In this document: positions 29,344 to 60,029 of the stretch, one piece after another
How positions within the stretch are numbered: position 1 is the first letter of the stretch
Layout of the letters: every line of letters begins with the position of its first letter
Source: Rubrobacter tropicus
GTDB lineage: Bacteria > Actinomycetota > Rubrobacteria > Rubrobacterales > Rubrobacteraceae
Direction: 5' to 3'
DNA length: 64,000 nucleotides
NCBI RefSeq assembly: GCF_011492945.1
Contig: NZ_CP045119.1
Coordinates: forward strand, 1,054,001-1,118,000
Program-made: the position numbers and the translations under genes
Notes under the pieces: generated by a model
Seen by the model: only the letters and a program-made list of their open reading frames with translations
Told to the model about the DNA's origin: nothing
Database searches by the model: none

Positions 29344-30300
29344 TCACAGCTTCGCCCGGGCCTCCGTTTGAAGGGCCGCGTCCAGAATCGTCTCTACCAG
29401 GTCCTCGAACGTGAGGCCGGAGGCCTCCGCGGCCAGGGGGAAGGTCGAGGTCTCGGTGAAGCCGGGGATCGTCTTTACGTCGATTACCTGTGGGGTGCCG
29501 CTCTCCACTATCGTGTCGACGCGGGCGTAGCCGGAGCAGCCTAAAGTGCGGTAGGCCGTAAGGGCGGTCTCGCGGAGGCGGGCGGCCGTCTCGGGCGCGA
29601 CTTCGGCTGGGATGGCGAAGTCCGTGGCGCCCGGGGTGTACTTCGCCTCGAAGTTGTAGGCCCCTTCTCTGGGCCGGATCTCGACAAGGCCCAACACCGA
29701 GGGCTCTTCGCCCGCCGGTTCCAGGATCGGGACGGAGACCTCCGTGCCGTCGACCCACCCCTCCAGCAGGATCTTGGCGTCGTACCCGAATGCCTCGTAG
29801 ACGGCGTCCAGGATGCCGTCGGGTCCCTCCACGCGGGAGAGCCCGAAGCTGGATCCCTCCCTCGCCGGTTTGACGACGAGCGGATAGCCCAACGAGTCGG
29901 CCGCCACGTCGAGCGCGGCCGAGGCGCCCATCTCGTTCATGGCGCGCCGGAGAAAGGTCCTCGACGGCGGCGTCGGTATACCCGCGGCGCGAAGCGCCCG
30001 CTTGGCGTAGTCCTTGTCCATGCACCGGATGGAGGAGAGCGGCCCGCTCCCGGTGTACGGGACGCCCAACGTTTCCAGGAGGGCCTGTACCGTGCCGTCC
30101 TCGCCGCCCGGTCCGTGCAGGCAGATAAAGGCCGCGTCGGGGGAGAGTTCCATCAGCGCGCCCGTGGTCGTCTCCTCCACGTCGAGGGGATGGACCTCGT
30201 GCCCGAGGCGTTCGAGGGCGTGCTGGACGCGCCTGCCGGTTACGAACGAGACGTCCCGCTCCATGGAGTGCCCGCCGCGCAATACGGCCACGCGCGCCAC
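29344..30300 (-). CDS. D-alanine-D-alanine ligase-like ATP-grasp protein
   Basis: A 318-residue Ddl homologue. The N-terminal 'LRGGHSMERDVS' matches the family GGxSxExxVS, then come 'HGPGGEDGTVQALLE', 'GIPTPPSRTF', 'PLVVKPAREGSSFGLSRV' and 'GYARVDTIV' (metal Asp262). The usual ExN Mg pair before 'PGFT' is changed: 'VIDVKTIPGFT' has Asp274 for Glu and Lys276 for Asn. A true Ddl joins two D-Ala for peptidoglycan; with this altered metal site another amino-acid ligase role is possible. It ends an operon with an aminotransferase and a protein of unknown function. Confidence 0.85.
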   Translation of the reverse strand: MARVAVLRGGHSMERDVSFVTGRRVQHALERLGHEVHPLDVEETTTGALMELSPDAAFICLHGPGGEDGTVQALLETLGVPYTGSGPLSSIRCMDKDYAKRALRAAGIPTPPSRTFLRRAMNEMGASAALDVAADSLGYPLVVKPAREGSSFGLSRVEGPDGILDAVYEAFGYDAKILLEGWVDGTEVSVPILEPAGEEPSVLGLVEIRPREGAYNFEAKYTPGATDFAIPAEVAPETAARLRETALTAYRTLGCSGYARVDTIVESGTPQVIDVKTIPGFTETSTFPLAAEASGLTFEDLVETILDAALQTEARAKL

Positions 30301-30306
30301 GGCGCC

Positions 30307-31626
30307 CTATCTCCCCGCGCCGGAGGCGCGGCTGCCGGAGCGGGCGGCGCCCTTCTGGCTCCGGCCCTGGCGCGAGCCGCGCTCCATGTCGCTGCGCAGC
30401 TCCATGCGTTCGCGGATGGTCTCGGCCAGGATCTCGACGCCGCGACGGATCTTGTCCGGCTCGACGAACGAGAAGTTGAGCCGCATGTGATTCTTGCCCG
30501 CCCCGCCCGCGTAGAACCCCTCGCCCGGCACGTAGGCGACGTTCTTCGCCACGGCCCGCGGCAGCATCGCCGTCGCGTCCAGGTACGAGGGGAGGGTAGC
30601 CCACACGAAGAGCCCGCCCTCCGGGTGGGTCCAGTGGACCTCCTTGGGCATGAACTCGGCCAGGGCGTCGAGCATCGCGTCGCGCCGCTCGCGGTACATG
30701 CCGTTGAGGCGTTTGACGTAGGACTTCCAGTCGGCGTTTCGGAAGTAGGAGGAGATCATCATCTGCGAGAGGTTCGAGGAGCAGAGGTCGGCCCCCTGCT
30801 TGCCGACGTTGATCTTGTGCAGGATGCCCGGCTGCGCGTGGACCCACCCGAGCCTCACCCCGGGCGCGAAGATCTTCGAGAACGTCCCCAGATAGACGAC
30901 CCGGTCCACGTCCCCTTCTTCCTGCTCCAGCGCCGCCAGCGAGGGCAGCGGCTCCCCCTCGAAGCGGAGCATCCCGTAGGGGTTGTCCTCCACGATGATG
31001 AGGTCGAACTCCCGAGCCAACCCCAGCAACTCTTTACGCCTCTCCGCGACCATCGTGACGCCCGTGGGGTTCTGGAAGTTGGGTACCGTGTAGATGAACT
31101 TCACGTGGATGCCCTGTTTGCGCGCCCGCATCAAGGTCTCGCGGGCCGCCACGGGGATTATGCCGGCCCGGTCCATCGGGGCGTGGGCTATCTTCGGGCG
31201 GTAGGCGGCGAAGGCGTTGAGGGCGCCCGCGTAGGTCGGTCCCTCGCACAGCACGGCGTCGCCCTCGTCCAGGAAGACCTTCGCTATGAGGTCGAGGCCC
31301 TGCTGGGCGCCCGTCGTGACGAAGACGTCCTCCTGGCGGGCCGGCGTGCCCTCGGCGGCCATGACCTCGACTATGACGTCCTTGATCGATTCGAGGCCGG
31401 CGGTCGGGCCGTACTGGAGGGCCTGGGCGGCGTCGGGGGCTATGGCCTGCGAGATCTCCCGGAACGCCTCCTCGCCGAAGGCCTTCGTATCCGGGAAGCC
31501 GCCCGCCAGGGAGATGATGCCGGGCCTAGAGAGCGTCGCCATGAGGTCGCGGGTGACGGCCGACTTCATGCCCTTGACGCGGGTGGCGTAGAGAAAGTCG
31601 AAGCGGTCGAGGTCTACGAGCGGCAA
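30307..31626 (-). CDS. PLP-dependent aminotransferase class I/II (LysN-like)
   Basis: A 439-residue fold-type I enzyme. It has 'GIISLAGGFPDTKAFG' at the N-terminus, 'TTGAQQGLDLIAKVFLDEGD', 'YTVPNFQNPTGVTM', the PLP Asp-x-Tyr in 'EDNPYGMLRFEG', the Schiff-base Lys in 'LGTFSKIFAPGVRLGW' and a terminal Arg in 'HMRLNFSF'. This matches 2-aminoadipate/multi-substrate aminotransferases. The last 25 residues are Arg/Gly/Ser-rich and extra. TTG 31626 follows AGAGAGG, three bases after the upstream stop. It precedes the Ddl-like gene by six bases. Confidence 0.9.
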   Translation of the reverse strand: MPLVDLDRFDFLYATRVKGMKSAVTRDLMATLSRPGIISLAGGFPDTKAFGEEAFREISQAIAPDAAQALQYGPTAGLESIKDVIVEVMAAEGTPARQEDVFVTTGAQQGLDLIAKVFLDEGDAVLCEGPTYAGALNAFAAYRPKIAHAPMDRAGIIPVAARETLMRARKQGIHVKFIYTVPNFQNPTGVTMVAERRKELLGLAREFDLIIVEDNPYGMLRFEGEPLPSLAALEQEEGDVDRVVYLGTFSKIFAPGVRLGWVHAQPGILHKINVGKQGADLCSSNLSQMMISSYFRNADWKSYVKRLNGMYRERRDAMLDALAEFMPKEVHWTHPEGGLFVWATLPSYLDATAMLPRAVAKNVAYVPGEGFYAGGAGKNHMRLNFSFVEPDKIRRGVEILAETIRERMELRSDMERGSRQGRSQKGAARSGSRASGAGR

Positions 31627-31629
31627 GGG

Positions 31630-32220
31630 CTATTCCTCTCTGTTGATGAAAGTCTCCACGTTCCGCCAGCCGAGCTCCCCGGAGAGCACCCTCCAGAGCT
31701 CGGGCGGCATCTCGAAGCGGCTGGCGCCGCACCGGCGGCCCCGAATGGAGAGGGTCTTTAGGGTATCGTTGCCGGCGGCCAAAGCGCCGTCGTCGGCGAC
31801 GGCCCCGATCAGGTACGCCTGCTCGACCGCGGCGCCCTCCTCCAGCCCGACCGCGACCCGTTCCACGAGGTCCCGCCCGACCACCGGCGCGAAGAGGTAG
31901 CCCGTGGTCGCCGCCAGGAGCCCCGAGGGTTCGAGGACGAGGTCGTACTCCAGCGCCGACCGCTCGCCCGCGCTCCTGACGCCCCTGAGGACGGTCCTGA
32001 AGGCGTGGTCGGCGGCGTACCGTTCGAGGCGGGTCCGGATCTCCCCAAGCTCGGCCAGCTCTTCGGGTGTCGGCCCTTGCGCGAAAGCGCCGTTTGCCGT
32101 GGCGCGCTCCCAGACCTCTTCGGGAAAGACGATGCTCAAAGAACCGGCGTTTGCGAAGAGGCGGACCCGGCCCTCCAGCCGCTCCAGCCCTTCGAGGCTC
32201 TCCACCCTTACCTCTTGCAT
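31630..32220 (-). CDS. Protein of unknown function, 196 residues
   Basis: I do not recognise a family. The product is soluble and mixed alpha/beta, with an acidic N-terminal half ('TPEELAELGEIRTRLERYAA') and a conserved-looking C-terminus ('FEMPPELWRVLSGELGWRNV'). ATG 32220 has no clear ribosome site; TACAGT lies seven bases upstream, so a leaderless message is possible. It is the first gene of the aminotransferase/Ddl-like operon. Confidence 0.65.
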   Translation of the reverse strand: MQEVRVESLEGLERLEGRVRLFANAGSLSIVFPEEVWERATANGAFAQGPTPEELAELGEIRTRLERYAADHAFRTVLRGVRSAGERSALEYDLVLEPSGLLAATTGYLFAPVVGRDLVERVAVGLEEGAAVEQAYLIGAVADDGALAAGNDTLKTLSIRGRRCGASRFEMPPELWRVLSGELGWRNVETFINREE

Positions 32221-58544: not shown

Positions 58545-60029
58545 GTGGACGCTCTTGCTACACTATCCGGCGTGATCCTGGACCGTCCAAACCTCGCGCG
58601 GACCCTCGGGGTCGAGGTCCCCCAAAGGGTCGATTCCGTCTGTGGCGTGACCCACGATTCCCGCGCCGTAGAACCGGGCTTCGCTTTCGTGGCGATCCCC
58701 GGCTTCAAACGCGACGGAACGGCGTTCGCCGCCGATGCGCTCGGCAGGGGCGCCTCTCTCATCGTGGCCGAACGCCCCGTGCCCGGCGCTCCGACGGCCG
58801 TCGTCCCTGACGCCAGGGGTGCCCTGGCGGCCCTCGCCCGCGAGGTCTTCGGGGACCCCTCCTCGAAGCTGGAGGTCTACGGCGTTACGGGAACCAACGG
58901 CAAGACGACCACGTCGTACGTGCTCCACTCCGTCCTGGCCGGGGCGTGCGGCGGGGGGACGTGCGGCCTGATGAGCACGGCCGAGACCATCGTGGCCGGG
59001 GAGCGGAGGCCTTCGGTTCGGACGACGCCGGAGGCGACGGAGGTGCAGGGGACGCTCGCCGAGATGCTACGGGCAGGCGTCGGACGGGTGGTGATGGAGG
59101 TCTCCTCCCACGGCGTCGCGCTCAGGCGGGTAACGGGCACGCGCTTTGCCGGCGCGCTCTTCACGAACCTGACCCGAGACCACCTCGACCTGCACGGCTC
59201 CATGGAGGAGTACTTCGCGGCCAAGCGCGAGCTCTTCCTCTGGACGGAGGGGCCGAAGCTCGCCAACGCGGAGGACGCGTGGGGCCGCAGGCTCGCCTCC
59301 GAGGTCGATGGCGTGCTGACCTTCGGCGGGACGGCGGGGGCGGACTACCGGGTCGAAGGGGTCGAAACGGCCGCCGGGGGGACCCGTTTCTCCCTGCGGT
59401 ACCCCGAAGGAATACTCGACCTCGAAAGCCCGTTGCTCGGGCCGTACAACGTGCTCAACGTGGCGGGGGCCGCCGGGCTCGCGCTCGCCACGGGCGTGGA
59501 GTCCGGGGCCGTCGCGACGGCCGTGCGTGGGATGGGTCAGGTGCCGGGCCGGTTCGAGCGGGTAGTGGCCGCTGGGGAGCGTGGGTTCGAGGTGATCGTG
59601 GACTACGCCCACACCGACGTCGGGCTGGAGGCCGTGTTGCGGGTGGCCCGGGGCGTGTCCGAAGGAAGCGTCATCTGCGTCTACGGGGCCGCAGGCGACC
59701 GGGACGGGGCCAAGCGGCCTGCGATGGGGAGGGTGGCTTCGCTCTTCGCGGACCGGGGCATCGTAACCACGGACGACGCGTACACCGAGGACCCCGGTAA
59801 GATAGCCGGGGAGGTCGCGGCCGGGGCCGACCCTTCGCGGACCGAAGTCGAGTTGGACCGGCGGGCCGCGATCCGGCGCGCGCTCCTGGCCGCCCGTCCG
59901 GGGGACGTCGTTGTGGTGGCGGGCAAGGGGCACGAGACGGTGCAGCACCTCCCCTGGGGGGACGTGCCGTTCCACGACGCCAAGGTCGTCGAGGAGTTGC
60001 TGGCGGAGATGGGGCCAAACGGGAGGTAG
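58545..60029 (+). CDS. murE: UDP-N-acetylmuramyl-tripeptide synthetase (MurE)
   Basis: A 494-residue Mur ligase adding the third amino acid of the peptidoglycan stem. It has the N-terminal 'GVTHDSRAVEPGFAFVAIPG', ATP P-loop 'VYGVTGTNGKTTTSYVL', 'EVSSHGVALRRV', 'FTNLTRDHLDLHGSMEEYFA', and the carbamylated Lys in 'YFAAKRELF'. 'GRFERVV', 'VIVDYAHTDVGLEAVL' and 'VVVAGKGHETVQ' follow. The mDAP-selecting DNPR is replaced by 'TTDDAYTEDP', so meso-DAP is unlikely; L-lysine fits Rubrobacter walls. GTG 58545 follows GGGGAG. Confidence 0.93.
   Translation: MDALATLSGVILDRPNLARTLGVEVPQRVDSVCGVTHDSRAVEPGFAFVAIPGFKRDGTAFAADALGRGASLIVAERPVPGAPTAVVPDARGALAALAREVFGDPSSKLEVYGVTGTNGKTTTSYVLHSVLAGACGGGTCGLMSTAETIVAGERRPSVRTTPEATEVQGTLAEMLRAGVGRVVMEVSSHGVALRRVTGTRFAGALFTNLTRDHLDLHGSMEEYFAAKRELFLWTEGPKLANAEDAWGRRLASEVDGVLTFGGTAGADYRVEGVETAAGGTRFSLRYPEGILDLESPLLGPYNVLNVAGAAGLALATGVESGAVATAVRGMGQVPGRFERVVAAGERGFEVIVDYAHTDVGLEAVLRVARGVSEGSVICVYGAAGDRDGAKRPAMGRVASLFADRGIVTTDDAYTEDPGKIAGEVAAGADPSRTEVELDRRAAIRRALLAARPGDVVVVAGKGHETVQHLPWGDVPFHDAKVVEELLAEMGPNGR

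Follow-up and report, generated by a model that had tools for sequence, protein, structure and literature searches.

The ddl-like gene of Rubrobacter tropicus analysed here encodes a member of an old Actinomycetota clade of D-Ala-D-Ala ligase homologues (Ddls) that are linked to an aminotransferase and usually occur alongside another Ddl. The window, i.e., the whole stretch of DNA that was analysed, spans 64,000 nucleotides. Its ddl product carries an altered metal-ligand motif. The reading tentatively preferred here, which we hold to be close to evenly balanced and which is drawn from sequence comparison, is that of a functional accessory Ddl paralogue working with the adjacent aminotransferase and having a rearranged second-metal site.

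The aminotransferase-ddl gene pair and its clade

Four features of the window are relevant to the pair:

29344..30300, minus strand: ddl-family ATP-grasp ligase, aminotransferase-linked paralogue with D274/K276/T286 (open reading frame, Pfam, NCBIfam, alignment, tree and structure match)
29455..29487, minus strand: altered metal-ligand motif VIDVKTIPGFT, residues 272-282 (DNA reading and DdlB alignment)
30307..31626, minus strand: PLP-dependent aminotransferase, LysN/KAT-II-like, 439 aa, TTG start (Pfam Aminotran_1_2 and PDB relatives)
31630..32220, minus strand: 196-aa open reading frame with no Pfam or NCBIfam match, overlapping the listed 5' part of the rdgB open reading frame

The ddl open reading frame starts with GTG and encodes 318 amino acids. 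The protein belongs to the Ddl family by both of its Pfam domains (Dala_Dala_lig_C, 179 bits; Dala_Dala_lig_N, 72.4 bits) and by its score against the curated NCBIfam D-Ala-D-Ala ligase model PRK01372 (311.8 bits, cut-off 243). Its fold, as modelled with AlphaFold2 from 21 sequences (mean pLDDT 75.8, pTM 0.79, low confidence at residues 149-153 and 211-227), is that of a Ddl. All 50 matches listed in a structure search with this model were Ddl or Van-type ligases (Z 26.5-30.4), and the match to 2dln covered nearly the full length (Z 29.6, 299 residues, rmsd 2.8). A VanA- or VanC-type ligase (D-Ala-D-Lac or D-Ala-D-Ser) was rejected, as scores against Van models lay far below their cut-offs (best 25 of 35 families; VanG, 213.6 against 495). 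Excerpts of a paper report van-like genes in one of eight Rubrobacterales records, which has no bearing on the window ddl (PMC8698665).

The aminotransferase gene lies upstream, with six bases between its stop and the ddl start. The best of 13 solved relatives of its product were 1x0m, 3aov and 2egy. The pair resembles DdlR and other MocR regulators, in that an aminotransferase-fold protein is tied to ddl; unlike them, the aminotransferase of the window displayed only aminotransferase domains in Pfam, without a DNA-binding domain, and scored under MocR-type NCBIfam cut-offs. DdlR is listed, in the excerpted source, as a D-alanyl-D-alanine ligase regulator of Brevibacillus brevis (PMC6677901). 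PhzF-like proteins were tied to MocR regulons in a text that held no match for ddl or D-alanine (PMC5320631).

The sequence-only reading had placed ddl in an operon with an aminotransferase and an unknown protein, and had inferred from this a special amino-acid or peptide product. The link to the aminotransferase stood, and is far older than the Rubrobacteraceae, but that to the unknown protein was not conserved. The aminotransferase was found beside ddl in all 15 long Rubrobacteraceae contexts (L142-L156) and the 196-aa open reading frame in six of them, the latter being therefore probably outside the core pair. Over all Rubrobacteraceae contexts examined, 24 of 26 had an adjacent aminotransferase, and the two exceptions (L157 and L161) surround other Ddls. 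Genes around the pair in this family include trmFO, rdgB and pdh genes. Among 40 outgroup loci of 17 other families, picked from strong hits and thus not a random sample, the aminotransferase was found beside ddl in 33 (20/20 of the first loci and 13/20 of the further ones, with one intervening gene in four of the 13). In many Actinomycetota, an additional Ddl is encoded next to an aminotransferase gene.

These linked Ddls grouped together in a tree of 105 rows, where a single 67-row clade (support 100/99) encompassed the 33 linked outgroup and 34 Rubrobacteraceae rows, the latter on a long stem branch (0.95). The window Ddl falls into this linked clade, as defined here, both by its adjacent aminotransferase and by its position. 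Outside the clade were seven unlinked outgroup rows, 30 canonical rows and the third Ddl of one genome (G263). An origin from the mur cluster was rejected, since the unlinked outgroup copies, four of whose seven loci adjoin murC, fall outside the linked clade. No additional relatives turned up when viral contigs were searched. Locus L157 (G263 C127) holds a further divergent ExN Ddl on a long branch, beside which the window probe detected no aminotransferase.

Four outgroup loci from three families have a PhzF-like isomerase gene between the aminotransferase and ddl genes:

L166:3629-4531, PhzF-like isomerase gene, PF02567 by Pfam
L167:1534-2433, PhzF-like isomerase gene, PF02567 by Pfam
L173:1530-2432, PhzF-like isomerase gene, 91% identical to that of L166
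L178:1488-2492, PhzF-like isomerase gene, PF02567 by Pfam

Such loci would suit a ligase for a non-peptidoglycan metabolite with a MysD-like role, acting on an amino acid that the aminotransferase makes and that a PhzF-like protein isomerises in some lineages. We consider this explanation unlikely for the window Ddl: PhzF probes had no match at the Rubrobacteraceae loci searched, though a single PhzF gene is present at another place in the R. tropicus genome; the 25 largest neighbour clusters listed included no recognised biosynthetic gene; and the pocket for the first substrate has the residues of D-Ala enzymes. MysD, likened here by description only, is a Ddl homologue from the synthesis of mycosporine-like amino acids, where it links an amino acid with a different partner. 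Its specificity is set on the omega loop, according to an excerpted report (PMC11983340). The metabolite ligase overlaps with the preferred accessory-ligase reading, the difference between the two being the product.

Further outgroup loci displayed another setting. Within a few kilobases of the pair, parA and parB were found in nine of the 20 longer outgroup contexts, with rsmG too in seven (Pfam names of the par region were checked for one locus):

L183, L187, L190, L191, L193, L195, L196, L201 and L202: pair contexts near parA/parB

Locus L184 was dropped from the parB-near loci, its placement by clustering not being confirmed by tblastn.

Metal-ligand motif and the residue 148/276 pairing

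In the alignment to E. coli DdlB (1iov), D274 and K276 of the window Ddl stand opposite E270 and N272 (positions counted along the alignment), in place of the ExN motif that precedes PGxT. The minus strand codes the motif as GTA ATC GAC GTA AAG ACG ATC CCC GGC. Further equivalent positions, counted likewise, are D262/D257, R260/R255, K220/K215, Y221/Y216 and T286/L282 (window Ddl/DdlB). The window Ddl resembles DdlB (PRK01372, TIGR01205; 1iov/2dln) in its fold over nearly the whole length, with 37-38% identity in structural alignment, and in the compared catalytic residues, the metal motif excepted. It differs by E270D, N272K, L282T and Y212F (DdlB positions, counted) and by the pairing of its gene with an aminotransferase outside any mur cluster. 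Canonical residues kept in the window Ddl are E14, K96, K144, S150, E180, E187, K220, Y221, R260, D262, G280 and S285, of which E14, S150, Y221, R260, G280 and S285 are D-Ala pocket residues; in E. coli numbering, the set E15, K97, K144, S150, K215, Y216, R255, D257, G276 and S281 is present in full.

Two-metal phosphoryl transfer is usually regarded as a trait of ATP-grasp ligases, and Asn272 of the E. coli enzyme is taken here to be a ligand of the second Mg2+. Positions 262, 275, 277 and 287 of the Burkholderia enzyme would correspond to 262, 274, 276 and 286 in the window Ddl, as judged from the alignment. In the excerpted report on that enzyme, Asp262, Glu275 and Asn277 are among the conserved ATP-site residues, and two Mg2+ of E. 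coli Ddl touch Asp262, Glu275 and phosphates (PMC6899670). The same excerpts count Glu275 among the residues conserved in 98-100% of sequences, call residue 277 (printed as Asp) strictly conserved and give Leu287 as conserved in 90% (PMC6899670).

The altered Mg2+ site noticed by the sequence-only reading was thus borne out, and it recurs within the family. A DNA pattern for D-[AV]-K-T-[LIVMF]-P-G-F-T-E, blind to DxK before PGMT or PGLT, was found in 31 of the 39 Rubrobacteraceae genomes and in none of 357 others of the phylum. Sequencing error or chance was rejected as the source of DxK because of this recurrence. Among the eight family genomes without the strict motif, four displayed DxN (G034, G283, G320 and G329) and one ExN (G073); G212 and G252 had no linked match at E <= 1e-60, and the copy of G127 was truncated.

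The 34 aligned Rubrobacteraceae linked rows comprised 30 DxK, three DxN and one ExN (G073), all with T286. Linked outgroup copies had Glu274 (33/33) with Asn (25) or Asp (8) at position 276, and all 37 canonical and unlinked rows had Glu274 and Asn276; Lys276 was found in none of the 70 aligned outgroup, unlinked and canonical Ddl rows. Catalytic exceptions within the family were K96 to Gly in R. taiwanensis and K220 to Arg in G073, and S151 was Gly or Ala in many Rubrobacteraceae rows. A second DxK motif copy in G394 (C263:1291-1320) and a second, partial linked ddl in G001 (C516:3-692) are possibly due to contamination or strain mixture.

Of the 318 columns compared, only 148 and 276 shared no residue between the 30 Lys and the four Asn rows of the Rubrobacteraceae: Glu148 came with Lys276, and Gln or Gly148 with Asn276. 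The seven unlinked outgroup Ddls combine Glu148 with Asn276, therefore Glu148 does not demand Lys. On the tree, at least five changes were needed at position 276 and at least ten at position 148, yielding two independent pairs on well-supported branches and three on all branches, with which the E148/K276 coupling cannot reach significance. When pairings were drawn at random 200 times, the two starred pairs agreed in direction in most of the draws.

A bolder version of the preferred reading would have the Lys, pinned by a co-evolved Glu, replace the second Mg2+ in a one-metal ligation, within a widespread and unrecognised Actinomycetota aminotransferase-Ddl system whose dipeptide is not cell-wall D-Ala-D-Ala; this version appears doubtful. 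No paper among the matches listed from the open-licence literature described a function for the aminotransferase-ddl pair or a Lys at this position. The natural set of ExN, DxN and DxK in one family, together with the Gln/Glu switch at 148, would allow the part played by the second metal to be probed through changes at two residues.

Copy number and selection

The sequence-only reading hinged on the window gene not being the only ddl, and had suggested that a canonical one might lie near murF/murC. A second, canonical ddl does exist in the R. tropicus genome, coding for an ExN Ddl (LLNEINTIPGFT; G000 C1:3348923-3350095), but it is not near the Mur ligase genes (C1:2188204-2194559). Being neither the sole Ddl nor encoded in a mur cluster, the window Ddl does not have the features of a housekeeping Ddl in R. 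tropicus. The two proteins belong to the same Pfam family and share about 35% identity over their whole length (40% in the best segment), and the canonical one differs in its ExN motif, its separate clade and its weaker purifying selection. The window itself holds a Mur ligase open reading frame at 58545-60029 (Mur_ligase_M, 156.5 bits), about 1.07 Mb from the three others at the Mur locus above.

A close relative of the canonical Ddl was found in 31 of the 39 Rubrobacteraceae genomes, and two of the eight genomes without it (G170 and G263) hold a different further Ddl. Of the first 38 genomes checked, 37 had the linked copy, each with at least one further Ddl, and G212 displayed the canonical Ddl only, with no linked copy found. 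Fourteen of 15 further family genomes had the linked copy, eight with a further Ddl and six, all incomplete, without. Another Ddl was thus found in 45 of the 51 linked-copy genomes checked. In six incomplete family genomes, each split into 240-640 contigs, no strong Ddl match other than the linked copy was found: G003 (94% complete), G004, G329, G338, G356 and G394 (75-82%).

These six genomes would suit a second ordinary D-Ala-D-Ala ligase, an explanation in which the change from Glu to Asp is conservative, the enzyme tolerates Lys and its product adds to the cell-wall supply of D-Ala-D-Ala. The DdlA/DdlB pair of other bacteria adds to this supply likewise. The D-Ala pocket residues, a score above the D-Ala-D-Ala ligase cut-off and the core-gene setting near parA/parB are in line with it, but Asp and Lys in the window Ddl stand against Glu274 and Asn276 in every canonical and unlinked row, Thr replaces L282 throughout the family rows and the linked clade is separate from mur-cluster copies, which leaves an ordinary ligase somewhat unlikely.

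The linked gene can be lost, since searches of G212 and G252 found no copy and its frame is broken in R. marinus. In the latter (L072 and L150, one assembly), the break falls around residue 270, directly ahead of the metal motif, and could reflect a genuine mutation or a fault in the assembly.

In six pairs with congeners, all of one genus, dN/dS ranged from 0.077 to 0.110 in the DxK copy and from 0.119 to 0.242 in the canonical one, the DxK copy being lower in all six; these ratios are rough because dS reaches 1.15. They argue, within that genus, against a decaying pseudogene, though the R. marinus frame is broken. Nor does the expectation that a Lys at this place should change or abolish the chemistry find support as it was put: besides the low dN/dS, the window Ddl keeps the other compared catalytic residues and Lys276 occurs only with Glu148.

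Purifying selection could equally be expected of a protein that regulates without being an enzyme, which is a point against reading the linked Ddl as a working ligase. Such a pseudoenzyme would have lost catalysis once the canonical Ddl took over, and would now regulate by binding the aminotransferase or the canonical Ddl. Lys in place of a metal ligand, the close relative of the canonical copy in most family genomes and the long family stem branch are in line with this, yet the protein retains ATP- and substrate-site residues for which a regulator might have no use, and dN/dS falls below that of the canonical copy in every pair; we regard it as decidedly unlikely.

Candidate activity of the linked Ddl

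Metal residues are swapped in the linked Ddl of the Rubrobacteraceae and yet selection on it is strong; it therefore probably still works, maybe with another job than making the main cell-wall block. Purifying selection, the kept catalytic residues and the restriction of K276 to rows with E148 suggest, as a prediction, that the site has accommodated the change and is not dead. In the preferred accessory-ligase reading, the enzyme would still bind ATP, activate a D-amino acid as an acyl phosphate and join it to a second amino acid. D262 and D274 would still bind a metal, and the change of Asn to Lys would probably weaken the second Mg2+ site, or replace it with the ammonium group of Lys, held there by E148. 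The supply of amino acids would be set by the aminotransferase. The second-substrate pocket has T286 instead of Leu, which suggests an altered acceptor choice, and the product would probably be a D-Ala-containing dipeptide, or else a conditional supply of D-Ala-D-Ala.
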